Below, piece after piece: positions 5,737 to 43,276 of a stretch of DNA of 64,000 bases. The translations under genes and the position numbers were made by a program. This DNA comes from Deltaproteobacteria bacterium (GTDB lineage: Bacteria; Desulfobacterota; DSM-4660; Desulfatiglandales; Desulfatiglandaceae), in the NCBI GenBank assembly GCA_021737785.1, contig JAIPDI010000008.1, forward strand, positions 1-64,000, given 5' to 3'. The notes below the pieces were generated by a model. That model saw only the letters and a list, made by a program, of their open reading frames with translations, ran no database searches and had not been told where the DNA came from. Positions within the stretch are counted from its first letter, which is position 1. Each line of letters begins with the position of its first letter.

Positions 5737-5766
5737 ACCTATTGCCAATTAAGGAGAGATCATTTT

Positions 5767-6153: not shown

Positions 6154-6218
6154 GCCACGCTTTACAACATAAGTTGACCTCAACGCATTAAAATTGTTGA
6201 AGCCAGGATAAAGGGAAT

Positions 6219-7409: not shown

Positions 7410-7465
7410 TCAAAACCCCCATTTTCTGAGAAGCAGGATACCTTCAAAACGGGTGATCACCAAAT

Positions 7466-8269: not shown

Positions 8270-8296
8270 AAGACACCTCTTGCAGCGAGGAATAGC

Positions 8297-9193: not shown

Positions 9194-9258
9194 CATTCAT
9201 TTAAAACGCATAAAGTCAGTCATCCACGACTAATGTAATTGCAAAGGACATTAATATT

Positions 9259-10302: not shown

Positions 10303-10425
10303 ATTCATAATTCAGTGCTAGGAGACTCAACTGGACGAAAGGGGGGGTGATACATACATAAAACGGGTCGGTTCGCCACGCTGCATTTGATAAAATATTT
10401 CGCAGAGGTTGTGAAGGAGGGGAAA

Positions 10426-11622: not shown

Positions 11623-11640
11623 CCCCACAAGAAAACCAAC

Positions 11641-11672
11641 CCCCTGTCCGTGCCCTTTTGGTGGGCAGGGGG
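11641..11672 (+). terminator. Hairpin after the binding-protein gene
   Basis: CCCCCT and GCCC pair with GGGC and AGGGGG around a TTTTGGT loop, with a small bulge in the 5' arm. It lies 19 nt after the livK stop and lacks a T-run, so it is more likely an mRNA-stabilising or attenuating hairpin that raises the binding-protein level than a full terminator. Confidence 0.4.
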
Positions 11673-11735
11673 ACATTAACTGCAATTAGCCTCAGTTTTG
11701 GTTATATGCCGTCTCACTTCGAAGGAGAGCCAATA

Positions 11736-12539
11736 GTGCGTGAAAGGGAATACCAGCTTGTAATTGACAGCATAGCGCTATCATTTCAAGGCGTTAAAGC
11801 CCTGCATGATGTTAGCCTCAAGGTCAAAAAGGGCACCATTTTTTCTATTATTGGACCAAATGGCGCAGGTAAAACCTGTGTGCTCAACTCCATTAATCGT
11901 TTTTATAAAGTGAATAGGGGAGAAATCTCTTTTGAGGGGCGCGAACTCACCAAACTGCCCTCCCATATGATTGCAGAACTTGGTATTGCCAGAACCTTTC
12001 AGGGAACAGAACTATTTCATGGATTGACCGTCTTGGATAATATCAAGTTGGGCGCCCATGTCCGACTCAAGACAGGTGTTTTTTCTGCGTTGTCTTACTT
12101 CGGCAAGGCTCACCTTGAAGAGATGAAACTCAGAAAGGAAGTAGAGGAAACGATCGTTGATCTTCTTGAAATCGAATCAATCAGAAAAAAGGTGGTGGGG
12201 ACACTCCCATATGGTTTGCAAAAACGTGTCGAATTGGGCAGAGCCTTGGCAATGAAACCAAAATTATTGCTGCTTGATGAACCCATGGCTGGGATGAACT
12301 TGGAAGAGACTGAAGATATGGCGCGTTTCATACTTGACGTCAATGAAGAGTGGGGAACCACTATTGTTTTAATTGAGCATGATATGGGTGTGGTTATGGA
12401 TGTTTCTGATACGATATGTGTCCTTGATTTTGGCGTAAAAATTGCCGAGGGGAACCCTAAAGACATCAGGGAAAATCCCAAAGTTGTCAGCGCCTATTTA
12501 GGCGAAGAAGAAGTATCCTATTCGAGGCTTGGGGCTTAA
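11736..12539 (+). CDS. livG: LivG-type ABC transporter ATPase (cluster A)
   Basis: A 267-residue ABC ATPase. Walker A is GPNGAGKTC, Walker B is LLLLDEPMAGMN followed by LEETEDMARFI, and the switch His lies in LIEHDMGVVMD. The signature region reads PYGLQKRVELGRA instead of a canonical LSGGQ, as in the cluster B homologue (PFGIQRRVELGRA), so it is a subgroup trait. The GTG at 11736 is chosen because AAGGAG lies 8 nt upstream and homology to the cluster B LivG begins there; the open frame upstream to 11601 reads through the hairpin and is probably untranslated. Confidence 0.9.
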   Translation: MREREYQLVIDSIALSFQGVKALHDVSLKVKKGTIFSIIGPNGAGKTCVLNSINRFYKVNRGEISFEGRELTKLPSHMIAELGIARTFQGTELFHGLTVLDNIKLGAHVRLKTGVFSALSYFGKAHLEEMKLRKEVEETIVDLLEIESIRKKVVGTLPYGLQKRVELGRALAMKPKLLLLDEPMAGMNLEETEDMARFILDVNEEWGTTIVLIEHDMGVVMDVSDTICVLDFGVKIAEGNPKDIRENPKVVSAYLGEEEVSYSRLGA

Positions 12540-12678
12540 CTCTTGACAAACGACATCCTGCTTATTCTTTTGATACAAAATTATCGAATGGTCCCATTTT
12601 CTCTTTGAAAATGCCGGTATCATAAGGACTGTCTGACGAAAAGGATATTGTTTACCGTTGACTCTGGAGGATTGATTT

Positions 12679-14634
12679 ATGCGCTCAACCACCTTGCCGG
12701 GCCTATTAGTTGATAACAGGAATAAATTCGGCGACAAGAAAATAGCGCTTCGCGAAAAGGAATATGGGATCTGGCAGGAATACACGTGGAAAGATTACTA
12801 CGAGCATGTTAAGAACTTTGCCATGGGAATCCACAGCTTAGGATTCAAGAGTGGGGAAAAATTGGCCATCATCGGGGATAACCGCCCTGAGTGGGTGTGG
12901 GCCGAATTGGCTGCTCAGTCTCTTGGAGGGATCCCTCTGGGTATTTACCAGGACTCCATACTCAATGAAGTTGTTTATATCATAAATCATTCCGAATCTA
13001 CCATAGTCGTGGCAGAAGACCAGGAACAATGTGATAAAATATTGTCTCTAAAGAAAAAAATCCCAAATGTCATAAAGCTTGTTTATACGGATCCCAAGGG
13101 AATGAGGGGCTATGATGACGACCTGTTAATAAGTTTTGAAAAAGTAGAAGATTTGGGCAAAGAGATGGCCCTGTTGGACCCGTCCTTTTATGATAGCGCG
13201 GTAACGAATCTTGATGAAGATGCCATTGCTATAATTGCCTACACGTCAGGCACAACCGGGTTTCCCAAGGGGTCTCTTTTGACTCACAAAAACATGCTAT
13301 CCATGGCTAAGAATCTCAATAAAGTCGATCCGAAATATGAAGATGATGAGTTCGTTTCCTTTTTGCCTTTACCGTGGGTGGGAGAGCAAATGATAGGGGT
13401 TTCTTCTTCTCTTTATATTGGATTTACAGTTAATTTTCCCGAGGAACCTGAGACCGCCACAGAAGATCTCTATGAAATAGGGCCAAATCTCATGTTTTCT
13501 CCCCCTAGGGTTTGGGAGCAAATGTCTCGATCCATTATGGTCAAGATCTTGGACGCCTCCTATTTGAAACGCTTTATTTATGAGCTCTGCCTGCCCATTG
13601 GGTACAGATGGGCTGATTTTAAGTTCGAAAAGAAAGTGCCTCCAAGGCTCTGGAGGCTAATTTATGCCTTGGCCTATTTGGCAGTTTTCCGTTCGCTTAA
13701 AGATCGGTTAGGATTCTCAAAGCTTCGATCCGCAACCACTGGCGGGGCTTTACTGGGTCCGGATGTATTCAGATTTTTTCATGCCCTTGGTATAAATCTG
13801 AAGCAGATATACGGACAGACAGAAATCTCAGGTATTTCAACTATACATCACAAAGGGGATGTAAAATTCGACACGGTGGGCATCCCAATTCCGGAAACGG
13901 AAATAAGGATATCTGAGGAGGGCGAAATCATTTCCAGGAGTCCATCTCTGTTTCAGGGGTATTGGAAAAACCCTGAAGCCACGGAGGAAACTCTCAAGAA
14001 TGGATGGCTACACTCAGGTGATGCTGGCTATTTTACAGAAGATGGGCACTTGGTCTGTATCGACCGAGTCAAGGATCTTATGGAACTCAACAATGGAACG
14101 AGGTTCTCTCCACTCTTTATTGAGAACAAGTTGAAATTTTGCCCTTATATTGTAGAGGCCGTAATCGTAGGCCACAAAAGGGACTTTATTGCTGGTATTG
14201 TTTGTATTGATTTCAAGCATGTTGGAAAATGGGCAGAAGATCATAATATTCCTTACACAACATATTCTGATCTTGCCTCAAGAAAGGAGATTTATCAATT
14301 AATCGAGAATGAAGTTTATCGAGTGAATAGGACTTTGCCCAAAGAGATGAGAGTTCACAGATTTTTTCTATTGTATAAGGAACTGGATCCCGACGACGAG
14401 GAATTAACAAGGACAAGAAAGGTAAGACGTGGCTTCATAAACGAGAAATATGCAAATGAAATTGGGGCGCTATATAGTAATGTTGAAATACTGCCAGTCG
14501 AGACCAAAATCAAGTATCAAGATGGGAGAACAGCTACGATTAAAACGGAACTATTCTTCTGTACCATGAAGCATGATGGCTATTACGAAAAAATGGTTCG
14601 GAAAAAGAAATGGTGGCAAAGAGAAAAAGGATAG
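12679..14634 (+). CDS. Long-chain-type acyl-CoA synthetase (AMP-forming), cluster A
   Basis: A 651-residue ANL-superfamily ligase converting a carboxylic acid, ATP and CoA to acyl-CoA, AMP and PPi. The P-loop YTSGTTGFPKG is intact, followed by IYGQTEISG and LHSGDAGYFTEDGHL. The hinge motif is DRVKDLMELNNGTRFSP, with PLFIENKL where the cluster B paralogue has the canonical PSEIENRL. The C-terminal LTRTRKVRR lysine region resembles long-chain fatty-acyl-CoA synthetases. It has about 45 more C-terminal residues than the cluster B enzyme. TGGAGG is well placed before the ATG. As last gene of the transporter operon it probably traps the imported acid as its CoA ester, feeding the mutase. Confidence 0.9.
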   Translation: MRSTTLPGLLVDNRNKFGDKKIALREKEYGIWQEYTWKDYYEHVKNFAMGIHSLGFKSGEKLAIIGDNRPEWVWAELAAQSLGGIPLGIYQDSILNEVVYIINHSESTIVVAEDQEQCDKILSLKKKIPNVIKLVYTDPKGMRGYDDDLLISFEKVEDLGKEMALLDPSFYDSAVTNLDEDAIAIIAYTSGTTGFPKGSLLTHKNMLSMAKNLNKVDPKYEDDEFVSFLPLPWVGEQMIGVSSSLYIGFTVNFPEEPETATEDLYEIGPNLMFSPPRVWEQMSRSIMVKILDASYLKRFIYELCLPIGYRWADFKFEKKVPPRLWRLIYALAYLAVFRSLKDRLGFSKLRSATTGGALLGPDVFRFFHALGINLKQIYGQTEISGISTIHHKGDVKFDTVGIPIPETEIRISEEGEIISRSPSLFQGYWKNPEATEETLKNGWLHSGDAGYFTEDGHLVCIDRVKDLMELNNGTRFSPLFIENKLKFCPYIVEAVIVGHKRDFIAGIVCIDFKHVGKWAEDHNIPYTTYSDLASRKEIYQLIENEVYRVNRTLPKEMRVHRFFLLYKELDPDDEELTRTRKVRRGFINEKYANEIGALYSNVEILPVETKIKYQDGRTATIKTELFFCTMKHDGYYEKMVRKKKWWQREKG

Positions 14635-30823: not shown

Positions 30824-31079
30824 TCATCCGGCCATCTTTGAGGAGAAGTCTTGCAGACTGAACATCTAAGAATATGGAAGGTCGGATATCAGCAGGGAAC
30901 AAATTGGATAATAATTAGGATGGGTTTGCCATGTCAAGTTTCTTCATGTTTTGGCTTGATCCTTTCGAAATGAGCCTACATACGACCCATTTTCCTGATG
31001 GCGCATTGGCCGATCATATTTCAGTAATTGGCGCAGCTGGGGATGGAGACTATTCAAGCCTCCACCCTTTCTCATTATG

Positions 31080-31487
31080 TTACGCATAGATGTTCTCGAT
31101 CCACCTCATGGCCTCAGTGTCAGGCACCTTTCCCAAGTAAATTTGAGTAGTTGACAGGTTGGCATGCCGTAAGATGACTTTTTACACGATCTCGATGGGC
31201 ACACCTGAGCGGCTCGCATATGTCGCAGCATGTCTCCTGAGATCATGGGGCCTGAGCCGAATCCCGACCCTTTCGCCTGCCTTTTTCACCATGCTCCGTG
31301 TGGCCTCGTAGGACAAGGGAAAAATTCTCTGGCCCGGCTGAATCCCGTTGTCCCTGATGTATTCCTTGAGGCGGTCAGCCACTTTCTGTGGGATGAAAAT
31401 ATACTCCCGTTCCTTGCCGCTTTTCGGGTCCCTCAGCGTCAGTTTCCGGTCATGGACGTCAATTGCCCTCAGCTTCAGGACCTCACC
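31080..31487 (-). pseudogene. Tyrosine recombinase (integrase) fragment with internal stop
   Basis: Reading the minus strand, the catalytic domain runs GEVLKLRAIDVHDRKLTL, then VADRLKEYIRDNG, RLRPHDLRRHAATYASRSGV and PIEIV; a TAA (31182-31184) interrupts it; the same frame then gives KVILRHANLSTTQIYLGKV with the catalytic Tyr and ends at IENIYA. Box I HDLRRHAATYA and box II HANLSTTQIYLG are both recognisable. A TAG at 31488-31490 cuts off the N-terminal part. The gene is dead but marks a past integration next to the TRAP cluster. The stop is TAA, so recoding is not an explanation. The 256 bp between it and the crotonase gene hold no gene. Confidence 0.75.
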
Positions 31488-31497
31488 CTATAATTCT

Positions 31498-31517
31498 CTC
31501 AAGAATCAATTCTTGAG
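31498..31517. repeat. Inverted repeat beside the integrase fragment
   Basis: CTCAAGAAT-CA-ATTCTTGAG, 9-bp perfect arms with a 2-nt centre. It lies at the truncated N-terminal edge of the integrase remnant. It could be a recombination end or an operator. Confidence 0.45.
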
Positions 31518-31700
31518 CTGCATTATCAAGGATTGTCCTTCCAATAGCATCCCATTTCATGGCATTGGAAAACAATCCAACTCTGTTTTCCGTCCCACCC
31601 TGGGATAAGATGGCAACATTTGGCAAATTGAAGGAGCCCGCATCCATTATCCTGCCTTCCCTTGCATTTTTACCTTGACAATAGCCGTCAATCTATATAC

Positions 31701-31755: not shown

Positions 31756-32397
31756 ATGAGCACTTTACGTCAACACGCCTATAAACTAATAAAAGAAAAA
31801 ATAGTCTGCCTAAAACTGAAACCGGGCGAGAGACTGTTCGAGGCAGATCTCGCGAAAGACTTAGAAATAGGCAGAACGCCAGTGCGAGAAGCTATATTAA
31901 TGCTACAAAATGAGAAGTTAGTCATATGTGACGAGAAACTGGGCTACATAGTGCGCAAACTCTCTAGAGAGGAAGCTTATGACTACTTCTCTATTCGACA
32001 GGTTATAGAGGATTTTGCCATCCCTCTTGTCCTCAAAGGCCTTACAGATAATACCATCGCAGAGCTAGAGCAAAACATAGAAAGCGCTCAGAATTGGATT
32101 AAAAAAAACGATTTTCCGAATATCATTCGCTATGAGACGGAGTTTCACGAAATTCTATACCGAACCACTAATTCAAAAGTGTTTATTGAAGTTATTTCAG
32201 GAATTGTAGACAAATTCCAGTGGCTAAGAGCAATAGGCCTTAGTGCACCAGGGGGTGCTCAAGAATCAGTAGCTGGCCACATGAAAATTCTTTTAGCTTA
32301 CAAATCTGGGGATGTTTCGGAAATAAGGAGATTGACAGAACTGCATATCAACCAGGCAAGAGACAATTTTGCAAAGATAGAGCACATCATCTTCTAA
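31756..32397 (+). CDS. GntR-family regulator (FCD type)
   Basis: A 213-residue GntR regulator. The winged helix is at about residues 5-70 (LKPGERLFEADLAKDLEIGRTPVREAILMLQ), followed by an all-helical FCD ligand domain with Asp/His positions (RYETEFHEILYRTT, HMKILLAY, TELHINQARD) that usually bind a metal and an organic acid. Regulators of this class control sugar-acid and hydroxy-acid catabolism next to TRAP transporters, which matches its place ahead of dctPQM. Likely binds the tandem repeats at 31701 or the inverted repeat at 32407. Confidence 0.9.
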   Translation: MSTLRQHAYKLIKEKIVCLKLKPGERLFEADLAKDLEIGRTPVREAILMLQNEKLVICDEKLGYIVRKLSREEAYDYFSIRQVIEDFAIPLVLKGLTDNTIAELEQNIESAQNWIKKNDFPNIIRYETEFHEILYRTTNSKVFIEVISGIVDKFQWLRAIGLSAPGGAQESVAGHMKILLAYKSGDVSEIRRLTELHINQARDNFAKIEHIIF

Positions 32398-32406
32398 TGC
32401 AACCAA

Positions 32407-32428
32407 CTAATTGATCAAAGTCAATTAG
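32407..32428. promoter_or_regulatory. Inverted repeat between gntR and dctP
   Basis: CTAATTGA-TCAAAG-TCAATTAG, perfect 8-bp arms, 9 nt after the gntR stop. Without a T-run it looks more like an operator (possibly for the GntR protein controlling dctP) than a terminator. Confidence 0.45.
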
Positions 32429-32484
32429 CTGATTTTATAATCAACCAAGAATACAAACAGAAAAAGCATTTTGCGGAGGTTGCC

Positions 32485-33552
32485 ATGAGAAAGAAAGGAA
32501 ACTTATTTGGTATCGGGAGTATTGTGTCATTTGCATTTATTATTGCCCTGGCTTCGATTGCCAGCCCAACTTTCGCATCAGACAAACCAATCGAGTTGAG
32601 TATCACTCATCTTTTTCCAGAGGGATCATGGTTCAATCAAAATGCAGTAGTGCCATGGAAGAAGCTGATTGAAGAAAAAAGCAACGGGAGACTAATCATC
32701 AATATCTACCCAAGTGGAGCTCTGGCAAAACCGGGAACAATGTACGATGCCGTTAAGGCTGGGACGGTGGACATTGCGTGGGATCCAGGCCCTTACTACA
32801 TAGGGCGTTTCCCATTGAGTGAAGCAACGCAGCTTCCCTTTCTTGGAGCCGAATCTTCATGGGCCGCAAGTCGTGCGTGGATGGATCTCTATGCGGAATT
32901 CCCGGAACTGAGGAAGGAGTATGATGATGTGCATTTCCTATTCATGTTTTCCCAAGGCCCAGGTCAAATTTACACAAGAAAACCAGTTAGGAACCTCGAA
33001 GACCTAAAGGGGTTAATTGTAAGAGCTCCAGGCGGCATCGGAGATATAGTAAAGGCCTTAGGCGGCTCTCCTGTCACACTGACAGCTCCTGAGACCTACC
33101 TCGCCTTATCCAAGGGAACGATAGATGCCACTGTGTTTGATCTTGAAGCTACCAAATTGTTTAAACTCTATGAGGTGACAAAGTATATTACTGTAGCGAA
33201 TATGTATGTACAATGGTTTTGGGCAGCCATGAATAAGGCCAAATACAATAGTCTGCCCAAGGACCTTCAAAAAGTAATCGATGAGTGCAGCGGAACAGTT
33301 GGAACTGATATCGTAGGTAAGGCCTGGAATGAAGCTGACATAGTGGGCAGAGAACTAGCAAAACAGAAAGGTTTGGAGCTGATTTACCTTAGCCCTGAGG
33401 AGCGCAAGCGTTGGGGGGAGCAATCTGCATCGGTTACCAACGACTGGCTGAAGGCTATGGAAGCGAAAGGATATCCTGCAAAAGAGTTTTTGGAAGCGGC
33501 AAAGAAAGCCATCCAAAAATATAATCAGAAGTTTTCGATTGAAACTAAATGA
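32485..33552 (+). CDS. dctP: TRAP transporter solute-binding protein DctP
   Basis: A 355-residue DctP-type periplasmic protein. The signal peptide MRKKGNLFGIGSIVSFAFII ends near TFASD. Family features: LSITHLFPEGSWFNQ, LINIYPSGALAKPG, FPLSEATQLPF, LKGLIVRAPGG (the Arg that usually clamps the ligand carboxylate) and GTIDATVFDLEATKLFKLYEVTKYIT. The ligand is therefore probably an organic acid. GCGGAGG precedes the ATG. First gene of the transport/oxidation cluster. Confidence 0.92.
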   Translation: MRKKGNLFGIGSIVSFAFIIALASIASPTFASDKPIELSITHLFPEGSWFNQNAVVPWKKLIEEKSNGRLIINIYPSGALAKPGTMYDAVKAGTVDIAWDPGPYYIGRFPLSEATQLPFLGAESSWAASRAWMDLYAEFPELRKEYDDVHFLFMFSQGPGQIYTRKPVRNLEDLKGLIVRAPGGIGDIVKALGGSPVTLTAPETYLALSKGTIDATVFDLEATKLFKLYEVTKYITVANMYVQWFWAAMNKAKYNSLPKDLQKVIDECSGTVGTDIVGKAWNEADIVGRELAKQKGLELIYLSPEERKRWGEQSASVTNDWLKAMEAKGYPAKEFLEAAKKAIQKYNQKFSIETK

Positions 33553-33605
33553 TACGGTTCGACTAGCAGGCCCACAGCTCTGACAAAAAAATAGGCATTG
33601 GGTTT

Positions 33606-33643
33606 CCGCCAGGAGCCGTTCTCATAAAGCCGCCTCCTGGCGG
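33606..33643 (+). terminator. Hairpin after dctP
   Basis: CCGCCAGGAG pairs with CTCCTGGCGG around an 18-nt loop, 54 nt after dctP. Lacks an immediate T-run. It may attenuate transcription so that the binding protein is made in excess of the membrane subunits. The rest of the 33553-33975 gap shows no gene. Confidence 0.5.
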
Positions 33644-33975
33644 GACCAATCACCTTTTCAGAAAGGACGATTATCATCAATTCCACAACAACGGTAGTCT
33701 CACTTTATCGCCATCAAAGAGCATATTGACAGATAAGTGAGCAAACTTTAGTACACCTTAATCTTTCAATTTCCTTTATTTTGACACTCATTTTGGCGTG
33801 AGACTTAAAGAAGGCTCTATTTATTCCAGCCAGCGATGCTGGAGTTCTCATTATGAACCAAAACTGCTGGAATCCCAAATACCATTACGCATTAATTGAC
33901 CTCACCAACAGAAAGAATGTATTTACGCCCATGTATCAATCAAAAATATAACTGATCCCAAAGAAATTCAATAAA

Positions 33976-34482
33976 ATGAAGCTATCAGAGCACTTCTTAA
34001 AAATAGAGCAAGTGGTTAACGCGATAGGCCGAATACTTAATTATGGTGGTGTCGCGTTCCTATTCGTATTAATGCTTCTTGTGGTAGTCCACGTGATTGG
34101 GCGCTATTTTTTTTCATTGCCTATACTTGGTTCAGTTGAACTAATAGAGTTTTTAATGGTTTTGGTTGTATTTCTCGGCTTGGCCGAATGTGCCAGTAAG
34201 CGAGGCAATGTAGCCGTCGAAATCCTCGTCGATCTCATGCCAAAAAGAGTCCAAGTGGTCATAGACACGGTTACAAGTTTCCTGAGTGTTATCATTGTAT
34301 CACTCATAACGTGGCAGAGTGTCATTCAGGTCACCAGCTTTTTGGAATCAGGACATGTGTCCGGAGTACATCACATTCCTTATTACCCATTTGCAATTTT
34401 GATGGTGCTAGGCTGGGCAGCATTTGATCTTGTTCTAATTGTGCATTTCTTTGGATTCCTGGGGAGAGCTTTGAGAAAATGA
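33976..34482 (+). CDS. dctQ: TRAP transporter small permease DctQ
   Basis: A 168-residue four-helix membrane protein. LMLLVVVHVIGRYFFSLPILGSVELIEFLMV is the DctQ signature region, followed by LGLAECASKRGNVAVEILVDLMP. The ribosome site is weak. The gap of 423 nt after dctP is unusually large for this gene pair. Its stop overlaps the dctM start. Confidence 0.9.
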   Translation: MKLSEHFLKIEQVVNAIGRILNYGGVAFLFVLMLLVVVHVIGRYFFSLPILGSVELIEFLMVLVVFLGLAECASKRGNVAVEILVDLMPKRVQVVIDTVTSFLSVIIVSLITWQSVIQVTSFLESGHVSGVHHIPYYPFAILMVLGWAAFDLVLIVHFFGFLGRALRK

Positions 34483-35783
34483 GCCTTTTTACGGCTAGTC
34501 TAATCTTCATTGTCATGCTCCTTATATTGTTACTACTGCGCATGTCTGTTGGACTTGCCATGGCTCTTATCGGATTTATTGGTTTTGCCTACATAACGAA
34601 TATGGGAGGCGCATACGGTCAGCTAAGGATTGTTCCAATTAGTCTTACAGCGAATTATGACTACTGCGTGATCCCGCTCTTTATGCTTATGGGTTCACTC
34701 GGATATCACTGTGGGTTAAGCCAGGATCTCTATTATGGTGCACACAAATGGGTTGGCGATTTGCCTGGGGGACTCGCCATAGCAACTGTACTAGGATGCT
34801 GCGGTTTTGCCGCAGTATGTGGATCGACGCTGGCAACAGCGGCAACAATGGGGATGGTAGCGTTGCCGGAAATGAAAAAGTACAATTATGATCCCGCACT
34901 TGCAACTGGTGTTGTAGCGTCCGGGGGATCCCTTGGCATCCTGATACCACCCAGTTCTATTTTTATAATCTATGGGTTGCTTACCGAACAATCGATTGGC
35001 AGCCTCTTCATAGCAGGTATTCTTCCAGGACTTCTACTCGCTGGTTTGTTCATTGTTGTAATTTATATAATGGTGAAGGTGAATCCTACGCTCGGTCCTC
35101 CGACAGAGAGAATACCGTTAAAAGAAAAGGTGGCTTCAATCAAGCATATGTGGCCGGTCCTGGGCCTATTCTTAGTGATTATGGGTGGGCTTTACATGGG
35201 TCTTTTTACACCAACGGAGGCAGCAGGGGTTGGTGCATTTGGGGCACTTCTAACCGGCCTCATAAAGAAAAGATTAACCTGGCAGAAACTGATTGCATCT
35301 TTGTTGGAAGCAATACAATCAACCGCCATGATTTTCGTTATAATCATTGGCGCCATGATTTTTGGATATTTTTTAACGGCAAGCCGGTTTACTGCCGGTC
35401 TAGCTGACTTTGTCGCCGGCTTTGAGGCATCACGCTATGTAATTTTGCTGGGGGTTACATTGGTCTACATAGTTCTAGGCTTGCTCATGGACACTTTGTC
35501 GATGGTCATCCTCACTGTGCCAATTTTTTTCCCGCTAATAATCAAACTGGGATTCGATCCCCTGTGGTTTGGTGTAATAATGGTGCTGATATCGGAAATG
35601 AGCGTTATTACACCGCCTGTCGGCATGAATGTTTACGTACTTCGCGGAATTGCAAAAGATGTTCCTATGTTCACTATATTCCGGGGTACGCTGCCGTTTT
35701 TTGCCGTAATGGTTTTATGCATTATAATAATTACCATTTTTCCCCAAATCGCGCTTTTCCTGCCCAACATTATGGGAAATTGA
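34479..35783 (+). CDS. dctM: TRAP transporter large permease DctM
   Basis: A 434-residue integral membrane protein with about twelve helices, overlapping dctQ by 4 nt (ATGA). Motifs include CCGFAAVCGSTLATAATMGMVALPEM, ATGVVASGGSLGILIPPSS, FTPTEAAGVGAFGALL and SEMSVITPPVGMNVYVLRGIA. It forms the sodium-coupled channel of the TRAP system with DctQ. Normal length. Confidence 0.94.
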   Translation: MSLFTASLIFIVMLLILLLLRMSVGLAMALIGFIGFAYITNMGGAYGQLRIVPISLTANYDYCVIPLFMLMGSLGYHCGLSQDLYYGAHKWVGDLPGGLAIATVLGCCGFAAVCGSTLATAATMGMVALPEMKKYNYDPALATGVVASGGSLGILIPPSSIFIIYGLLTEQSIGSLFIAGILPGLLLAGLFIVVIYIMVKVNPTLGPPTERIPLKEKVASIKHMWPVLGLFLVIMGGLYMGLFTPTEAAGVGAFGALLTGLIKKRLTWQKLIASLLEAIQSTAMIFVIIIGAMIFGYFLTASRFTAGLADFVAGFEASRYVILLGVTLVYIVLGLLMDTLSMVILTVPIFFPLIIKLGFDPLWFGVIMVLISEMSVITPPVGMNVYVLRGIAKDVPMFTIFRGTLPFFAVMVLCIIIITIFPQIALFLPNIMGN

Positions 35784-35831
35784 TTAGCGGGATTTGTAAT
35801 GACAAATGGGGGAAGTTGAGAAGGAGGTAAA

Positions 35832-37223
35832 ATGATGAGCATAACTAGAGATCTTGTACGCTACGTTATAGGAGCACGTTTCGACGACATTCCCCGGGAG
35901 GCTGTTGACAGAACGAAGAAATTCATTTTGGACGAGATCGGAAATGCGCTCGGCGGATCTGTTTTGAAATCCGGCAAAATAATTATAGAGTGGGCTAAGC
36001 AGATGGGAGGTTCGCCCGAATCTACGATACTTTCGGACGGTACAAAGGTTCCGGTAGGGATTGCCTCAGGCGTCAATACGCAGCTATGTATGGGTCTAGA
36101 ACTGATGGAGACCTACAAAAACAAGAGTCATCCTGGATCAGGAATGGTGATGACAGCCCTGGGACTTGGGGAGAGGAACCAAATTAGCGGCAAGGATATT
36201 TTGACTGCGGTATGTACGTCATATGATGTGACAGGACGAATCATAGATGCAACTTTTCCGTCTCCTGAGCATAAACAGAAAGTATGGAACCAAAACTGGC
36301 AAGGATGCGGGTCTTTAGTTGTAGCGCTAAAACTTTTGGGGTTGACTGAAGAACAGGGGATGAATGCATTTGGTATGGGCCTAGGCCAAGGACCTACAAT
36401 GAACGTTCACAACATCCTTTATGTCCCTGGTTCGATGTCGAAGCTGGGTAATCAATTTCACAGCTTTGTTGCCATAAACGGAGCCATTCTCGCTAAATTG
36501 GGTTACACCGGCTTTCACGAAATCCTTGATGACCCATATCCGTACTGGACAACCATATCAGACAGGAACGATTGGGAGACTTACACAAAAGGCTTGGGTG
36601 AAGACTTCTTGATTACGAGTGCGATGGCATTCAAACCATGGCCGACATGTAGGTGGGCACAGCCTGGAATTCAATCTCTGTTAGAAATCATGGCCTCTGA
36701 AGGCTTAACACCATCCGATATTCAAGAGGTAACATTCCACGCACATGACAAGATTACAAGCTACCCATATGACAATATCAATCCGATTAATCCGGAAGAC
36801 GCTTACTGGAGTGTACCTTGGGCATTCGCAAATGCTGCGATCGGCTACAAGATTGGACCTGCTTGGTATATAGAGGAACGTTTCAGCGATATCGAAATGC
36901 CTGAGTTCATGCGCAAGGTTAAGATCAAGACATTGCCCGATGCAGTGGAGGCTTTTGCAAAAGAGCCTGAGAAATCGATCACCTTGCTAGAGATCAAAAC
37001 TGACCAGGGTAAAACCTTTACGAAAAGGACAACGTACTGCAAGGGAGATCCGCAACAACCGATGACGGACGATGAAATTGTCGAAAAATTTCTCTCTCAA
37101 ACGACGGATGTCATTTCTGAAGATCAGTCGCGCCAAATAATCAAACTGGTCGAACAATTAGAAAACCTACCGGATATTACAGAGATTATGAGATTGGTTT
37201 ATCAGTCGCTGAACAGTGAATAA
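35832..37223 (+). CDS. MmgE/PrpD family protein
   Basis: A 463-residue protein of the MmgE/PrpD family, which includes 2-methylcitrate dehydratase, cis-aconitate decarboxylase and iminodisuccinate epimerase. Visible: RTKKFILDEIGNALGGS (helical N-terminal part), ELMETYKNKSHPGSGMV, FKPWPTCRWAQPGIQSLLE and a C-terminal Rossmann-like lid. The ribosome site AGAAGGAGG is excellent. The real reaction in this subfamily cannot be told from sequence; members beside TRAP transporters and hydroxyacid oxidases may dehydrate or epimerise a di- or tricarboxylate. Second block of the TRAP operon, 13 nt before the FAD oxidase. Confidence 0.88.
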   Translation: MMSITRDLVRYVIGARFDDIPREAVDRTKKFILDEIGNALGGSVLKSGKIIIEWAKQMGGSPESTILSDGTKVPVGIASGVNTQLCMGLELMETYKNKSHPGSGMVMTALGLGERNQISGKDILTAVCTSYDVTGRIIDATFPSPEHKQKVWNQNWQGCGSLVVALKLLGLTEEQGMNAFGMGLGQGPTMNVHNILYVPGSMSKLGNQFHSFVAINGAILAKLGYTGFHEILDDPYPYWTTISDRNDWETYTKGLGEDFLITSAMAFKPWPTCRWAQPGIQSLLEIMASEGLTPSDIQEVTFHAHDKITSYPYDNINPINPEDAYWSVPWAFANAAIGYKIGPAWYIEERFSDIEMPEFMRKVKIKTLPDAVEAFAKEPEKSITLLEIKTDQGKTFTKRTTYCKGDPQQPMTDDEIVEKFLSQTTDVISEDQSRQIIKLVEQLENLPDITEIMRLVYQSLNSE

Positions 37224-37235
37224 GGGGCCAATAGA

Positions 37236-38642
37236 ATGCAAAGCATCTATGACAAAGTAAAGGACATAGTTGGCGAGAAGAACATATCTGAGAATTATTT
37301 TGAGTTAATTAATAATACTCTTGACGCGTTTCCGTATGAGTTGGATCTTGAAGCCCATGAGAAGCTTCCGATTATTGTCGCAAAGCCCAAGGATGAGACC
37401 GAGGTGAGCGAGATTTTCAAGCTGGCGAATAGGGAAAATGTCCCTGTTTACCCTCGAGGATCAGGCACAAGCTTCACAGGCTCAGCAAGGGCAGCTGAAC
37501 CAGGGATCATATTAAGCACTGGGAAAATGAACTTCATTGACGTTCATACGGATTTTGGATACTTCGAATGCGGTCCAGGAGCTACTGTAAATTCGGTTGA
37601 TATGTCATTGGCAGAGAGAGGTTATTTTTTGCCTGTCTACCCAGGGAGCAAGATTGTCGCAACTATGGGTGGAATGATGGCGGGTAATACCAGCGGTCAT
37701 ATAATAGATGCAAGTATCGGGAAGCCAGGAGACTATGTCTTGGGTCTGACAGTTGTTCTCCCTACAGGTGAAATACTCGAAACCGGTACAAAGGCATTAA
37801 GAAAGCCTTCTGGAACTGATCTCACCAAATTCTTTGTGGGAAATGATGGATTGACGGGAATTGTCACGCGTATAAGGATGAGATTGGTTCCAGCAAAGGA
37901 AAAGGCATTCGGGATTGCATATTTCGAAAAAGCAGAATCCGTCGCGCGAGCTGTTGTAAGGATGTATAAGGAAAATGCTCCGGCACCGCTATTTATGGAG
38001 TTCATGGATAAACCAAGCACCACTATCGGCTTTGAACATGCTGGGCTTCCAATTCCTCCCGGGTGTTCGATATTTTTTGCCTCGCTGGGGTCGTCTAAAG
38101 AAGAGGCTTCTCACAATGCTCAAGAATTATTGCACGTGATGAGAAAGGAAGGCCCCATAAAGGCAGAAGAAATTCAAGATATGGCTGAATGGGCCAAGAT
38201 ATGGAGCGCAAGAGAGGTCATTATTGCATCGCTGATGCAGAAGCATAATGGTCAGTTTACTGGTCCTGAAATCGTTTCTACTCTTGCAAATGTTGTTGAA
38301 TGCATTAAGGAACTGGAGCATTACACGGAAAAGAAACCTGTGTTCAGAGATATTCCTCTATACCTATTCGGCCATATTGGAGCCCTGACATTTCATCCAA
38401 CCCTTATTGTGCCAAAGGATTTGGACAATGAGACAAAGAGAAAAATAGTTGACGCAGAATTCGAAATCGAAACTGAGATGAATTTGAGGTTTGGAACATG
38501 CGGAGGCGAGTGGGGCCAATTTGGAAAGCGTAATTCATTTTACAGGCGAAGATATGGCGACAAGGCTTATGAACTTGTGAAACAAATAAAGGCTGTCTTT
38601 GATCCAAATGATATTCTCAATCGTGGGTTTTTGGCCAATTAG
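37236..38642 (+). CDS. FAD-linked oxidase, GlcD/D-lactate dehydrogenase-like
   Basis: A 468-residue flavoprotein of the VAO/PCMH family. The FAD-binding domain holds PVYPRGSGTSFTGSARAAEPGIILSTGKMNFID and MGGMMAGNTSGH. The C-terminus GTCGGEWGQFGKRNSFYRRR and FDPNDILNRG corresponds to the GlcD-type end, but the usual GEHG is GEWG, so the active site differs from glycolate oxidase. It likely oxidises a 2-hydroxy acid and passes electrons to the Fe-S protein encoded next (38712). Confidence 0.9.
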   Translation: MQSIYDKVKDIVGEKNISENYFELINNTLDAFPYELDLEAHEKLPIIVAKPKDETEVSEIFKLANRENVPVYPRGSGTSFTGSARAAEPGIILSTGKMNFIDVHTDFGYFECGPGATVNSVDMSLAERGYFLPVYPGSKIVATMGGMMAGNTSGHIIDASIGKPGDYVLGLTVVLPTGEILETGTKALRKPSGTDLTKFFVGNDGLTGIVTRIRMRLVPAKEKAFGIAYFEKAESVARAVVRMYKENAPAPLFMEFMDKPSTTIGFEHAGLPIPPGCSIFFASLGSSKEEASHNAQELLHVMRKEGPIKAEEIQDMAEWAKIWSAREVIIASLMQKHNGQFTGPEIVSTLANVVECIKELEHYTEKKPVFRDIPLYLFGHIGALTFHPTLIVPKDLDNETKRKIVDAEFEIETEMNLRFGTCGGEWGQFGKRNSFYRRRYGDKAYELVKQIKAVFDPNDILNRGFLAN

Positions 38643-38711
38643 GGAGCGCATAAGATAGATCACTTGCAGCCGGATTTTTGTGTGCATCTATGAAAATACT
38701 CTTAAGGGACT

Positions 38712-39899
38712 ATGATGAAAGACATATATGAAAGCCGCAATGCTTTAGAAAACAGTATCCTCGAAGCTGTATCCAAATGTGTCAAGTGCCGTTTCTGTTT
38801 TACAAAGTGTCCGGTCTATGAAGTATCAGACGGCTGGGTAACTCAAGGAGGCTCTGGGATTACCCAGTCTCTTTATTATGGAGTAAAGTTCGGTACGATA
38901 AACAAGGATTTAAGAGATATCTTGATGAGATGTACCACTTGCCGAAGCTGTGAAATTATCTGTGAAAGGCTGATGTCGGGAGTCGGTTTGGTGGATGCTA
39001 TCAAGAAAGGACGTCAGCTCCTTTTCGAAGAAGAGATCATTCCAATACGGGAGCAGCAGAAGGCCTTGGAATCCCTCCAGACTGTGGGGAACCCCTATCT
39101 CAAGCCGCCCTCAAAAAGAACAGCCTGGGCTCATGGGTTGGATGTGAAACGCCTTGACCAAAATCCGGACAGTACTGCCATCCTGTATTTTGTGGGGTGC
39201 ACACCCGCCTACGATGAGCGGGTGCAGAAAGTAGCCCGGAGCATTGCGGGTATTCTGAAACAGGCTGGCGTTTCATTCGGTATCTTGGAACGGGAGAGGT
39301 GCTCAGGAGATACCGCCTTGGTAATGGGGGAAAAGGGGCTTTTTGAGGAGATGGCGGCAGAGAACTTGAAACTCATCGAGAAGGCGAAGGTGAGCACGAT
39401 CATCACAACCTCCCCACATGATTTCAATTCATTCCTGAAGGACTATCCCAACGAGATTCGAAAGATCAATATCATGCACTATACTCAGTTTTTGGCAGAG
39501 CTTTTGCAGCGCGGAGACCTCTCTTTCAAAAGGCAATTCAACAGAAAAGTGACCTACCATGATCCCTGCTACTTGGGAAAACACAACAATATCTATATGT
39601 ATCCTCGCGAGTTGATTAGAACGGTGCCAGGTCTTAAGCTTGTGGAGATGGAAAGAAATATGGAAAATAGCCTTTGTTGTGGGGGTGGTGGTGGCCGAAT
39701 GTGGGTGGATTTCGACGAGACTGTCCGGCTTTCTGAGATGCGGGTTCAAGAGGCGCTGGATACCGGAAGTCAGGTGTTAGTCACAGCCTGTCCTTTTTGT
39801 CTCATTAACTTCGAGGATGCCTTGAAGGTTATGGACAAGGAAAACCAATTGGTGGTGAAGGACGTCGCCGAGATTCTATTCGAATCTCTCGAACTTTGA
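38712..39899 (+). CDS. Fe-S protein of GlcF/HdrD type (CCG domains)
   Basis: A 395-residue electron-transfer protein. N-terminal two 4Fe-4S motifs CVKCRFCFTKCPVY and CTTCRSCEIICER; then two cysteine-rich CCG domains. The second is canonical (HDPCYLGKH, NSLCCGGGGGRMW and ACPFCLINFEDAL); the first is reduced to VGCTPAYDE and RERCSGDTA. It resembles glycolate oxidase GlcF and the HdrD family that passes electrons to quinone or heterodisulfide-like partners. Partner of the flavoprotein upstream. Confidence 0.9.
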   Translation: MMKDIYESRNALENSILEAVSKCVKCRFCFTKCPVYEVSDGWVTQGGSGITQSLYYGVKFGTINKDLRDILMRCTTCRSCEIICERLMSGVGLVDAIKKGRQLLFEEEIIPIREQQKALESLQTVGNPYLKPPSKRTAWAHGLDVKRLDQNPDSTAILYFVGCTPAYDERVQKVARSIAGILKQAGVSFGILERERCSGDTALVMGEKGLFEEMAAENLKLIEKAKVSTIITTSPHDFNSFLKDYPNEIRKINIMHYTQFLAELLQRGDLSFKRQFNRKVTYHDPCYLGKHNNIYMYPRELIRTVPGLKLVEMERNMENSLCCGGGGGRMWVDFDETVRLSEMRVQEALDTGSQVLVTACPFCLINFEDALKVMDKENQLVVKDVAEILFESLEL

Positions 39900-39968
39900 C
39901 AGCAAGGCTGACAGCTTTCTGCAGATATCTTAATCTGACTATGAATTATGGGGGTAATAGGAAGAAAT

Positions 39969-40385
39969 ATGATTCCGAATAAGTTAGGCGAAGATGGATG
40001 GAAAGAGCGTTCAGCGGGAAAGCCCAGCATTCCTATCTACAGGCACCGAGTCTACAAACTTGAAAAAAACATCGAGTGGAAATCCCATCCAATGAACCAT
40101 CGGCTCATGATGGGCCTCCTCCTTACAAACAACGAAGATGGGGTTGGGTTCACTTTAATCCGAGGCCACATCCCTAGCGGTGAAACCGTGGCAGAGCACA
40201 CCCATGATTTCCATGACATCCTTTACCCGCTTTCCGGCAAAGGAAAAATCTGGGTTGAGGGTGTCGGTGATCTAGAGCTCACTAAGGGCGTATTGGTCAA
40301 CGTGCCGCCAGGCACCTCTCACAAGCTCTACGATGTTACAGAGGATCTCGAATTGTTGGATATCTTCACCGGCCCTGTTATCTGA
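39969..40385 (+). CDS. Cupin-domain protein
   Basis: A 138-residue single cupin. Motif 1 is GETVAEHTHDFHDILYPLSGKG (His ligands plus no canonical Glu), motif 2 is VPPGTSHKLYD. It could be an isomerase, a dioxygenase-like enzyme or a sensor. The ATG at 39969 has AGGAAG just upstream; the earlier in-frame ATG at 39948 has none. Co-directional with the oxidase operon, 69 nt after it. Confidence 0.8.
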   Translation: MIPNKLGEDGWKERSAGKPSIPIYRHRVYKLEKNIEWKSHPMNHRLMMGLLLTNNEDGVGFTLIRGHIPSGETVAEHTHDFHDILYPLSGKGKIWVEGVGDLELTKGVLVNVPPGTSHKLYDVTEDLELLDIFTGPVI

Positions 40386-40492
40386 TGCCCTGTCCGGAGT
40401 TAGATTACTCTGGTGGCATTTTGCGGACAGGCTTCTGTGAAAAGACAAAATGATTGCATGGATAAATGTAGACGAAAAGGAGGTCTAGATTC

Positions 40493-41563
40493 ATGATGCT
40501 TAAAGAGGACCGCATGACCGGCCGGGAAAGAATAGATGCGCTGCTTGCACACAGAATGCCTGACCGAGTTCCTATCAATATGATTACAGTTGGTTTTCCC
40601 TGCAAAAATGCGGGTCTTCCGATAGCTGTGGGATATTCAGAATTGGAGAAGTACTTTCAGGCTTTTCTTTGGACTGCTGAACAGTATGGATGGGACCTAT
40701 TTCCCCAATGTTGTTCTCATATAGTTCTGGCGGCTGCAGATTTTGGAGGTGAGTTTCGTCTCCCGAAAGGGGAGTTCGAAGGGGCTCCGGTGGTTACTTC
40801 ATTCCCTGTGAATACAGAAAAGGATGCCGAAGATCTTAAATTGCCAGACCCAAGATCTAGCGATCGGATAAACAAGGCCATGAAATTGTCGAAGATGCAG
40901 GTTGAACATGATATTCTAGCAACCTTCGTTACCCGCTCCCCTTTCACAGTGGCCGCAAACCTTTGCGGGCTCGACAAGTTCTCCCGATGGATGATGAAAA
41001 AGCCTGAACTCTGCGATAGGTTGTTAGATTTGGCAATCAATCACATTTTCAATGTGCTGGACTGGTGGGTAGAAACCTTTGGTCCTGATCGTATTTTCGC
41101 CTTTTTGACCTCTCCAAGCGAGTCAAACCAGGTAATCTCTCCAAAAATGTTCAAGCGGTTTGCACTTCCTTATCATCTGGAATACCACAGGCGGTTGCGG
41201 GATCTTGGTATCAATCGTTTTTTGTTCCATATTTGTGGGGATCAGAATTTCAATCTTCCCCTGCTCGCCGAAGCTGCGCTGTGGCCCCACCCGAGTCTTC
41301 TAAGTTTTGGTCACGAGGTTGATTTAGAAAAGGCAGCTGAGTATTTTCCGGAAGATATTATCTACGGGAACATAGATACCACCATAATTCAGATGGGAAG
41401 CCCTCGGGAGGTTTACGATTGTGCGGTTGGGATAATTGAAAAAGGTCGAAGAGCACCAGGCGGATTTGTGCTGTCTGCAGGATGTGAGCTACCACCCATG
41501 GTTCCACCTGCCAATGTCTTTGCCATCACTAAAGCGGTTGACGATTTTGGGTGGTATGTCTAG
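40493..41563 (+). CDS. UroD-superfamily protein with MtaA/MtbA-type zinc motif
   Basis: A 356-residue TIM-barrel protein of the uroporphyrinogen decarboxylase superfamily (MTGRERIDALLAHRMPDRVP start). It carries His-x-Cys in LFHICGDQN and a distal Cys in SAGCELPP, the three ligands that hold zinc in corrinoid methyltransferases MtaA and MtbA, where zinc activates a thiol that receives a methyl group. Therefore a methyl- or thiol-transferase is likelier than heme biosynthesis. AAAAGGAGG precedes the ATG. No corrinoid protein of the MtaC type is adjacent, although a cobalamin protein is encoded at 5767 for another system. Confidence 0.85.
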   Translation: MMLKEDRMTGRERIDALLAHRMPDRVPINMITVGFPCKNAGLPIAVGYSELEKYFQAFLWTAEQYGWDLFPQCCSHIVLAAADFGGEFRLPKGEFEGAPVVTSFPVNTEKDAEDLKLPDPRSSDRINKAMKLSKMQVEHDILATFVTRSPFTVAANLCGLDKFSRWMMKKPELCDRLLDLAINHIFNVLDWWVETFGPDRIFAFLTSPSESNQVISPKMFKRFALPYHLEYHRRLRDLGINRFLFHICGDQNFNLPLLAEAALWPHPSLLSFGHEVDLEKAAEYFPEDIIYGNIDTTIIQMGSPREVYDCAVGIIEKGRRAPGGFVLSAGCELPPMVPPANVFAITKAVDDFGWYV

Positions 41564-41936
41564 GAGGACGCTTATATGATGCACTTTCGATAAGACCATT
41601 ACGCGAAATCTATTTCAACGCATTCCTTTTCACTTGGAGATGCTTTTGTCTCTTTTTTTAATGAGGAAAGCACAATTGAAAATGGAATAGAACCTTAATA
41701 TTGGTAGCCTCTTGAGATAGGAATAAGGGCACCAAGCATTTGCAGTTTGTTGGACGGCTGACAAAGAGGCAAGCAATCTGTTTTCCCTGATGCTTCCAGC
41801 TTCTTGAAATGTCTACCAGAACTTATATTTTTTCGTTATTTTTCAAACGCTCTCTAAAAAGGCTTTTGGACCTCCCAAGATTTGGGTTGTGTTTGAATCC
41901 CACCAATAACTAAAGTAAGAAAGGTTTTGAAACTAT
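41564..41936. other. Intergenic stretch, nothing recognised
   Basis: 373 bp of AT-rich sequence between the UroD-like and HAD genes. No credible open frame, RNA fold or repeat was seen. The HAD gene may have its own promoter in it. Confidence 0.5.
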
Positions 41937-42641
41937 ATGGAAGAAGTTAAAGGATTGTTTTTTGACGTAGGTGGGACTGTTTTCGACTGGAAAAATACAG
42001 TCCGGTATGAAATTGAGAAACTAGCAAATGAAAAGAACCAGTTCATTGACGGCAACTCATTCGCGAATGATTGGCGATCAGAAATGTTCACAATTCATAC
42101 CCAGGTCCGATACGGAAACTTGCCTTGGATGAATTCAGACGATATGCATTTAGGTGCGCTCAAAAAGCTGGCAACTAAATACCCAATATTAGGCATCGTC
42201 GATCTTAAAAGCCTTTTGGAATCGACTTGGCATCATCTCAAAGCGTTTCCCGGTTCTCGTGAGGCGATCAATCGTTTACGAGGCCGATACACGGTAGTGG
42301 TTTTGACCATCTTGAACTGGAACAGCATAGTTAGCAGTTCAAAAGCTGCGGGCTTGCAATGGGATGGCATCTTGTCGTGTGAATTTCTAGGCTATTATAA
42401 ACCCTCTCTGCAGGCCTATTTGAAAGCAACTAGTTTTCTAGGGCTCGAACCAAAAGAAGGACTGATGGTAGCTGCTCACAAAGATGATTTGGCAGCCGCA
42501 AAGGCTGCTGGAATGCATACCGCCTATGTGAATGTTCCTGAAAAAGACAGTACGTTTCAAAATGTTGATCGATCGAGTGAGATTCCTTTTGATATTGAGG
42601 CAAGAGATTTTTTGGACTTGTGCGAAAAACTTCAAGTATAA
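41937..42641 (+). CDS. HAD-superfamily hydrolase (haloacid dehalogenase type)
   Basis: A 234-residue HAD hydrolase. Motif I FDVGGTVFDW carries the nucleophile Asp, motif II is LTILNWN, the Lys is in YYKPSLQAYL, motif IV is MVAAHKDDLAAAKAAGM, the pattern of (S)-2-haloacid dehalogenases. Nucleophile and Lys are present. Real substrate could be a phosphate ester or a 2-haloacid. The gene is co-directional with the TRAP cluster but has 373 nt upstream. Downstream lies the IS element. Confidence 0.85.
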   Translation: MEEVKGLFFDVGGTVFDWKNTVRYEIEKLANEKNQFIDGNSFANDWRSEMFTIHTQVRYGNLPWMNSDDMHLGALKKLATKYPILGIVDLKSLLESTWHHLKAFPGSREAINRLRGRYTVVVLTILNWNSIVSSSKAAGLQWDGILSCEFLGYYKPSLQAYLKATSFLGLEPKEGLMVAAHKDDLAAAKAAGMHTAYVNVPEKDSTFQNVDRSSEIPFDIEARDFLDLCEKLQV

Positions 42642-42655
42642 TTTCAGTCACCCCA

Positions 42656-43276
42656 CCTCCGGCACAGCCGGAGGCTTGAAATATGTGAACCGCTCAAAGC
42701 GGTGGAAAAACCACGGGCCACCTCAAAGGTGGCGGCCAGTTACTTGAAGAAGTTTAGCTGATCGATTCTTCGATCTTCTCTTTCTTGTTCTTTGATATAT
42801 TTCCGGATTGCCTCTTCGTCTCTGCCCACTGTAGACACATGGTATCCTCTGGCCCAAAAATGCTGCCCAGTAAAATTCTTCTTGCGTCCAGAGTATTCTC
42901 TTGCGATGTGTATTGCGCTTTTCCCCTTGATGAAGCCGACCACTTGAGAAACCGCATACTTGGGTGGAATTGAGATCAACACATGGGCATGATCTGGCAT
43001 GAGATGCCCTTCCAGTATCTCACATTCTCGTCTTTGGGCCAAGTCCCTCAACACTTCCCGCAAATACCTTCGCAAGTCGCCATACAGCTCCTTTTTCCGA
43101 TATTTGGGTATCCATGTTAGATGATATTTGCATTTCCACTTCGTATGACTTAAACTCTGTTCATTATTCATCTTAAAGCCTCTCTTTCTGTGAATTTTGA
43201 GCGGTTCACTCTAAGAGGGGCTTTCACATAATCCCGGAAATGTCAAACTTTAGGAGTCCTCCGGCACAGCCGAAGG
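42656..43276 (-). mobile_element. IS200/IS605-like element, transposase only
   Basis: A single Y1 transposase gene flanked by near-identical hairpins: CCTCCGGC-ACA-GCCGGAGG (42656-42674) and CCTCCGGC-ACA-GCCGAAGG (43258-43276). Inside the left end are two more hairpins, ACCGCT-CAA-AGCGGT (42689-42703) and GCCACCT-CAA-AGGTGGC (42717-42733). Subterminal hairpins recognised as single strands are typical of the family. No tnpB. Exact ends are not proven. The element closes the AT-rich TRAP region. Confidence 0.65.
42740..43171 (-). CDS. tnpA: IS200-family transposase TnpA (Y1, HUH)
   Basis: A 143-residue REP/IS200-type single-strand transposase. The start KWKCKYHLTWIPKYRKKELY is diagnostic; the HUH metal motif is in LMPDHAHVLISIPP and the catalytic Tyr in AIRKYIKEQE. 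Full length and intact, so it may be active. It cuts and joins DNA at hairpins such as those flanking the gene. Confidence 0.92.
   Translation of the reverse strand: MNNEQSLSHTKWKCKYHLTWIPKYRKKELYGDLRRYLREVLRDLAQRRECEILEGHLMPDHAHVLISIPPKYAVSQVVGFIKGKSAIHIAREYSGRKKNFTGQHFWARGYHVSTVGRDEEAIRKYIKEQEREDRRIDQLNFFK

Follow-up and report, generated by a model that had tools for sequence, protein, structure and literature searches.

We analysed a window of 64,000 nucleotides from a sediment-type, anaerobic Deltaproteobacteria bacterium (contig 8, bases 1-64000, of a 5.33-Mb, 96-contig assembly) that carries a ten-gene cluster at 31756-42641. The cluster joins a tripartite ATP-independent periplasmic (TRAP) transporter, DctPQM, to an MmgE/PrpD-family enzyme (PrpD), a GlcD-type flavoprotein in which the catalytic His is replaced by Trp, an Fe-S partner and a UroD-superfamily protein. 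We propose, with a probability of about 0.45, that it is a mobile module for uptake of an aromatic (phenylpropanoid- or aryl-hydroxy-acid-like) carboxylate, its conversion by PrpD, two-electron oxidation by the altered flavoenzyme and, optionally, B12-dependent demethylation. The clade-wide loss of the catalytic base, the corrinoid neighbour of UroD in relatives, the grouping of DctP with aromatic-acid binders and the island go beyond the original prediction, which was made from the letters of this stretch.

The regulator, PrpD, flavoprotein and Fe-S protein travel together

The original prediction had named ten genes here. Ten open reading frames (ORFs), all on the plus strand, appear in the ORF listing for 31756-42641, and a profile search of the cluster proteins against Pfam agreed with all ten named families. 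They are listed below with the two elements that border them.

30920..31520, minus strand: tyrosine-recombinase (integrase) pseudogene, the island's left border; HDLRRH...Y-type motif recognised by eye, stops in frame
31756..32397, plus strand: GntR/FCD regulator; Pfam FCD 71 bits, GntR 47 bits; orthologue in 6 other orthologous clusters (46-73%)
32485..33552, plus strand: DctP, TRAP solute-binding protein, putatively of the aromatic-acid (TarP-like) group; Pfam DctP, nearest solved sequences and folds
33976..34482, plus strand: DctQ small permease; Pfam DctQ
34479..35783, plus strand: DctM large permease; Pfam DctM, TIGR00786 above cut-off
35832..37223, plus strand: MmgE/PrpD-family enzyme; Pfam MmgE_PrpD N and C domains, active-site comparison
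37236..38642, plus strand: GlcD-type metalloflavoprotein without the catalytic His (GGEWG); FAD_binding_4 and FAD-oxidase_C, 73-78% orthologues in 6 other clusters
38712..39899, plus strand: Fe-S/CCG electron-transfer partner; Pfam Fer4_8 and CCG, two CxxCxxCxxxC motifs
39948..40385, plus strand: cupin, accessory; Pfam Cupin_2
40493..41563, plus strand: UroD-superfamily zinc methyltransferase-like protein (H246, C248, C331); Pfam URO-D, nearest 4ay7 MtaA
41937..42641, plus strand: HAD hydrolase near haloacid dehalogenase/cis-epoxysuccinate hydrolase, accessory; Pfam HAD, sequence relatives
42740..43171, minus strand: IS200-like (Y1_Tnp) transposase, the island's right border; Pfam Y1_Tnp 134.8 bits

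The intergenic distances are 423 bp between DctP and DctQ, 373 bp between UroD and HAD, and -4 to 107 bp for all others. A degraded second UroD or corrinoid gene in the 373-bp gap was considered and rejected, as tblastn was significant only for the ends of the flanking genes.

To define orthologous clusters, we used a GlcD identity of at least 73%, which gave seven: the window, L026, L027, L028, L029, L030 and L046. All seven (7/7) contain GntR, PrpD, the GlcD-like protein and the Fe-S protein. Orthologous DctPQM is found in 5/7; in L027 a Liv ABC system lies between PrpD and GlcD instead, and the TRAP of L030 is non-orthologous (26-34% identity). UroD is likewise present in 5/7; the L029 copy is truncated, and in L028 the contig end cuts it. 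The HAD hydrolase occurs in 2/7 (its 67% orthologue solely in L046), the cupin in 1/7, plus the cousin cluster L031, and a corrinoid protein in 1/7. The association of these genes exceeds chance, as gene order is conserved among relatives. The original prediction had named a finding that would speak against it, namely that only DctPQM and one or two enzymes travel together; the genome comparison does not refute it in this way. The regulator and the trio of PrpD, GlcD-like and Fe-S proteins stood in full, DctPQM and UroD stood in most clusters, and HAD and cupin dropped out of the proposed set.

Clade GlcD proteins (E<=1e-90) were found in 21 genomes of a 395-genome draw from the phylum, and PrpD lies within the retrieved stretch in 24 of the 37 mapped loci that bear one. 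Several of the 13/37 loci without PrpD in the stretch are cut by contig ends, and a partial ORF at the edge of L052 that reads like the end of PrpD was scored as a miss. A literature search found no paper describing the gene set, which is not proof of absence. The PrpD/flavoprotein/Fe-S trio, in which transporters are swapped (DctP-TRAP, TAXI, Liv ABC) and methyl transfer by corrinoid proteins is optional, looks like a reusable module for anaerobic carbon degradation in sediment bacteria.

The sparse occurrence of HAD bears on an explanation by dehalogenation, in which HAD would turn a 2-haloacid into a hydroxy acid for oxidation by the GlcD-like and Fe-S proteins. HAD is nearest to haloacid dehalogenases and is kept by the cluster in Syntrophorhabdus. 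However, it falls narrowly under the cut-off for 'haloacid dehalogenase type II' (TIGR01428; 117.7 vs 125.4 bits), is 373 bp distant from its neighbour here and is present in just two of the orthologous clusters, which makes dehalogenation a very unlikely purpose of the module.

The GlcD-type flavoprotein has lost its catalytic base throughout a clade

The GlcD-like protein matches FAD_binding_4 and FAD-oxidase_C at 110.7 and 102.6 bits, above the cut-offs. The replacement of GEHG by GEWG, noticed in the original prediction, was confirmed: GGEWG is present (E425-W426) and aligned with the GEHG of solved GlcD and D-lactate dehydrogenase (D-LDH) relatives. In the sequence alignment, W426 falls on the GEHG His of LctD, mouse D-LDH and glycolate oxidase. 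For human D-2-hydroxyglutarate dehydrogenase (D-2-HGDH), the available part of PMC7801405 describes Arg386, His434, His441 and Glu475 as binding carboxylate and metal, and His476 as the proposed base, mutation of which ablates activity. The window's protein retains R326, H380, H387 and E425, the equivalents of the carboxylate Arg and the metal ligands, and the equivalent of His476 is W426.

We examined these positions in 33 full-length clade proteins, which were picked by overall similarity and not by motif; the count excludes the GlcD fragments L041, L054, L056 and L138. H380 and H387 are present in 33/33, Arg326 in 32/33, and position 425 is E in 30 and D in 3. In contrast to these ligands, the base position is W in 31 and V in 2. 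PF02913 has 12 matches in the window's genome: this protein, seven canonical ones (EHG in 7/7) and four distant ones without the site as aligned. In these alignments the His-to-Trp change defines a clade. Since the replacement is clade-wide while the canonical paralogues of the genome keep the His, it is inherited and was probably selected. This enzyme family is well studied, and the clade-wide exchange of a His essential to catalysis, with the metal site kept, predicts that the clade's reaction differs from the usual one: either it dispenses with hydroxyl proton abstraction or it uses a rearranged base. The protein thus resembles the D-2-hydroxyacid dehydrogenases (D-2-HGDH, D-LDH, GlcD and LctD) in its domains, its carboxylate Arg and its two His plus one acidic metal ligand; it is unlike them in the Trp (or Val) at the catalytic His and in its linkage to PrpD and a CCG Fe-S protein.

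Alternatively, the cluster could be an ordinary oxidase operon of the D-lactate/glycolate type that carries additional genes, as its GlcD-type flavoprotein and Fe-S partner adjoin a TRAP transporter. A relative in L032 is paired with EtfAB, a pairing that we take to recall LctBCD, the electron-bifurcating lactate dehydrogenase. This explanation has a slim chance of being correct: the essential His is replaced in all 33 clade members, the protein misses the glcD equivalog cut-off by far (201.5 vs 567.9 bits), and the genome already has seven canonical GlcD paralogues.

The electron partners vary, with one CCG protein in the window, HdrC plus HdrB-type pairs in L033-L036 and L141-L143, and EtfAB with L032 and L134. 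Because the partners differ among relatives, quinone is a conjectural acceptor. The quinone pool had been put forward as the acceptor in the original prediction; this was not upheld, since relatives pair the flavoprotein with electron-transfer flavoprotein (L032, L134) or with HdrC/HdrB-type proteins. The L032 locus (L032:3697-6991) encodes EtfB followed by an 835-residue EtfA-GlcD (GEWG) fusion. GGDWG or SGEVG subclades occur in L037, L038, L039, L040 and L140, some of them next to genes that resemble aldehyde:ferredoxin oxidoreductase and HMGL (names by eye).

A probable aromatic acid as the substrate of DctP and PrpD

The best solved sequence relatives of DctP are 7nsw, 7nrr, 5i5p, 7nr2, 5iga, 5im2, 4p56 and 4n6d. 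Fold comparison gave Z scores of 22.9-25.9 at 23-30% identity for ranks 1-15, and of 22.3 or less from rank 16. Most titles in ranks 1-15 name TarP, with ferulate, coumarate, caffeate, cinnamate or 4-hydroxyphenylacetate, or, in a marine protein, specificity for aromatic acids; some others are incomplete. A DctP paralogue of the same genome has a different best sequence match, 4mco. The genome also holds a 6-oxocyclohexenecarbonyl-CoA hydrolase above the cut-off (558.5 vs 464.45 bits), a marker of the benzoyl-CoA pathway. The sequence and fold relatives of DctP and this marker agree on an aromatic acid as the candidate substrate, short of proof. In the TarPQM phenylpropanoid cluster of Rhodopseudomonas palustris, too, an aromatic-acid-type TRAP transporter adjoins genes for degradation, and a Liv-type ABC system offers a redundant second route (PMC3610893, available part). 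CoA ligase and enoyl-CoA hydratase accompany the transporter there, whereas PrpD, the GlcD-like enzyme and UroD do so here.

Both MmgE_PrpD domains of PrpD score above the cut-off (115.8 and 99.1 vs 32.1 bits). The protein has no NCBIfam match at E<=0.001 and is distant from solved members (best E 6e-18). Its H100, T94 and K268 correspond to His103, Thr97 and Lys272 in human cis-aconitate decarboxylase, with Thr97 counted by us as a residue of that site. The equivalent of His159 is W152, and Lys207 is not aligned with a Lys. The full set of that active site, given as His103, His159, Lys207 and Lys272 in the available part of PMC12259180, is therefore absent. Because His103, Thr97 and Lys272 are kept and His159 is changed to Trp, PrpD should perform related acid-base chemistry on a different substrate. 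It shares both domains and the kept residues with the MmgE/PrpD enzymes (cis-aconitate decarboxylase, 2-methylcitrate dehydratase and IDS epimerase), and differs from them in the Trp and in its distant similarity. In G010 (L100), an eighth PrpD orthologue (70%) lies with CoA ligase, enoyl-CoA hydratase and TRAP genes and without a GEWG-type GlcD; this setting may reveal the product of PrpD.

Solved PrpD-family members act on small di- or tricarboxylates, and the same module might serve an aliphatic hydroxylated or unsaturated di- or tricarboxylate or a sugar acid, with UroD serving an unrelated or O-methyl sugar-acid substrate. The GntR matches include the NanR and UxuR models, far under their cut-offs, and cis-epoxysuccinate hydrolase is a close relative of HAD. 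In the cousin clusters the transporters are of the TAXI type, for which we know of no aromatic link. We consider an aliphatic substrate possible but on balance unlikely, as DctP groups with aromatic-acid binders by both sequence and fold and PrpD is without the His159 contact of cis-aconitate decarboxylase.

The cousin clusters L035, L036, L141, L142 and L143 contain TAXI-TRAP, creatininase, PrpD, often an S-adenosylmethionine (SAM) methyltransferase, GEWG GlcD, HdrC, HdrB and UroD. Creatinine or creatine as the substrate, hinted at by creatininase in L033, L035, L036 and L141-L143, was rejected because the gene occurs in 0/7 orthologous clusters. Carnitine and quaternary amines also came into consideration, on account of the Trp, and were set aside.

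The UroD-superfamily protein resembles corrinoid methyltransferases

The nearest solved protein to UroD is the methyltransferase MtaA (4ay7). It is also the top fold match of the UroD model, which is of moderate confidence (mean pLDDT, the predicted local distance difference test score, 63.4) and is followed by true UroD; methyltransferase types are not separated by fold. H246, C248 and C331 form the zinc motif HxC...C, which is invariant in 10/10 aligned relatives. A corrinoid protein gene directly precedes the UroD orthologue in L046, L036, L134 and L168; L046 and L168 also have a second UroD after the orthologue, and RACo/DUF6951 is nearby in L029 and L036. Among the corrinoid methyltransferases of the UroD superfamily are MtvB, OdmB, VdmB, MtoB and CdmB, and the superfamily has such enzymes for methoxylated aromatics and for halomethanes (PMC13222342, available part). 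A UroD-like protein adjoining a corrinoid protein in another setting is described in the accessible part of PMC9888536, which leaves the reading unchanged, and the accessible parts of PMC10589216 and PMC4959651 contain nothing that alters it. The window's protein is like the corrinoid systems of MtvB, OdmB, CdmB and MtaA in its fold, its zinc motif (as in MtaA), the adjacent corrinoid protein of its relatives and the RACo activator near some of them. Unlike those systems, it belongs to a PrpD/flavoprotein operon, and the corrinoid protein is missing from this copy.

The best corrinoid match in this genome (51% identity) is on contig 20. There, a region (G000:C20:26000-62000; L075, L076) holds four UroD, three corrinoid, two MtrH-like, RACo-like and DUF6951-type genes, some of them named by eye; the RACo-like ORF was recognised by eye from its N-terminal sequence, and an MtrH-family protein scores above the cut-off. 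A corrinoid protein was detected at E<=1e-20 in 13/14 genomes searched; G022 and G010 have corrinoid proteins and no UroD of the window's kind.

UroD might instead be a decarboxylase or other lyase that acts on the PrpD/GlcD product with no methyl transfer. Its fold matches true UroD too, and the window, L026 and L029 have no corrinoid protein in cis. The invariant HxC...C motif, MtaA as the nearest solved relative, the corrinoid neighbour in four relatives and RACo/DUF6951 in L029 and L036 argue against a lyase, which we regard as improbable.

A possible order of reactions

In the favoured explanation, a module for aromatic acids, DctPQM would import the acid under GntR control. PrpD would then carry out acid-base chemistry beside the carboxylate, by epimerisation, dehydration/hydration or decarboxylation. 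The GlcD-type FAD/metal enzyme would take two electrons and pass them to the Fe-S/CCG partner and on to the respiratory chain. KOR subunits are encoded after the PrpD/GlcD/Fe-S trio in L055, after GlcD-FeS in L052 and before GlcD in L031. In such KOR-linked cousins the product would most simply be a 2-oxoacid, which would then be decarboxylated to acyl-CoA. UroD would serve a corrinoid (B12) system as its zinc methyltransferase, with the corrinoid protein supplied from elsewhere in the genome. Of the pathway in the original prediction, TRAP-fed catabolism, a PrpD step, an oxidation by two electrons through flavin and Fe-S and, as probable, the removal of a methyl group (UroD in 5/7) are retained here; its halide removal is accessory at best (HAD in 2/7). 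The family-name labels glycolate oxidase, 2-methylcitrate dehydratase and uroporphyrinogen decarboxylase are all probably wrong for these proteins.

Several observations weigh against this explanation. The DctP model is moderate (mean pLDDT 64.5), and with 28-30% identity to TarP_Csal/Sse its ligand may differ. Liv ABC replaces TRAP in L027, and its binding protein is nearest to 8wch, which is not a known aromatic binder; because this match carries no aromatic information, the binding protein was dropped as independent proof of an aromatic substrate. PrpD in G010 occurs without a GEWG GlcD, so its product need not be a hydroxy acid, and the missing base speaks against plain 2-hydroxyacid oxidation. 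The window's own cluster has no corrinoid protein gene, and G034 keeps PrpD, GlcD and FeS with no UroD or corrinoid protein at the thresholds used. Because of these two absences, methyl transfer by UroD, though plausible, is an optional add-on to the PrpD/GlcD/Fe-S trio.

A bolder and rather doubtful proposal gives the GEWG proteins a functional class of their own, and a new one, within the GlcD superfamily. They would be metal-dependent flavoenzymes that can do without hydroxyl proton abstraction because they use acids other than free 2-hydroxy acids, such as 2-O-substituted acids or an unsaturated product of PrpD. PrpD and a CCG Fe-S protein would be their constant partners in the trio. The versions with UroD/corrinoid proteins would pass a methyl group of the substrate to B12, so that methoxylated aromatic acids would be degraded by an anaerobic route not yet described.

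The cluster has the character of a horizontally moved island

G+C per kilobase is 42.5-48.3% over 32-43 kb, compared to mostly 48-57% in the 10 kb on each side. Third-position G+C is 0.40-0.57 in the ten cluster genes and 0.61-0.70 in 11 sampled flanking genes at 26-61.4 kb. It is also low (0.45-0.49) in 3/4 sampled genes at 2-15 kb, and low G+C alone is therefore not unique to the cluster. The closest cluster is that of Syntrophorhabdus sp. PtaU1.Bin058 (GntR 73%, DctP 70%, DctM 79%, PrpD 79%, HAD 67%), and most cluster genes are nearer to it than to the clusters of same-order genomes. UroD is the exception, with 67% identity in G048 vs 60% in Syntrophorhabdus sp. PtaU1.Bin058. PrpD orthologues (E below 1e-260) occur in 7/85 genomes of the class. 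The named GlcD-like relatives among 15 loci are mostly from Deltaproteobacteria metagenome-assembled genomes (MAGs), and also from Syntrophaceae, Aquificota-labelled and Syntrophorhabdus MAGs. Collectively, the low G+C, the bordering recombinase pseudogene and IS200 transposase, the closeness to Syntrophorhabdus and the sparse PrpD orthologues fit a horizontally moved catabolic island.

Elsewhere in the window, 4054-14634 holds mutase-like, M24 peptidase/creatinase-like and Liv ABC genes (names by eye), with third-position G+C of 0.45-0.49 in three sampled genes, possibly a second island, and a Liv ABC binding-protein gene is also present at 25994.

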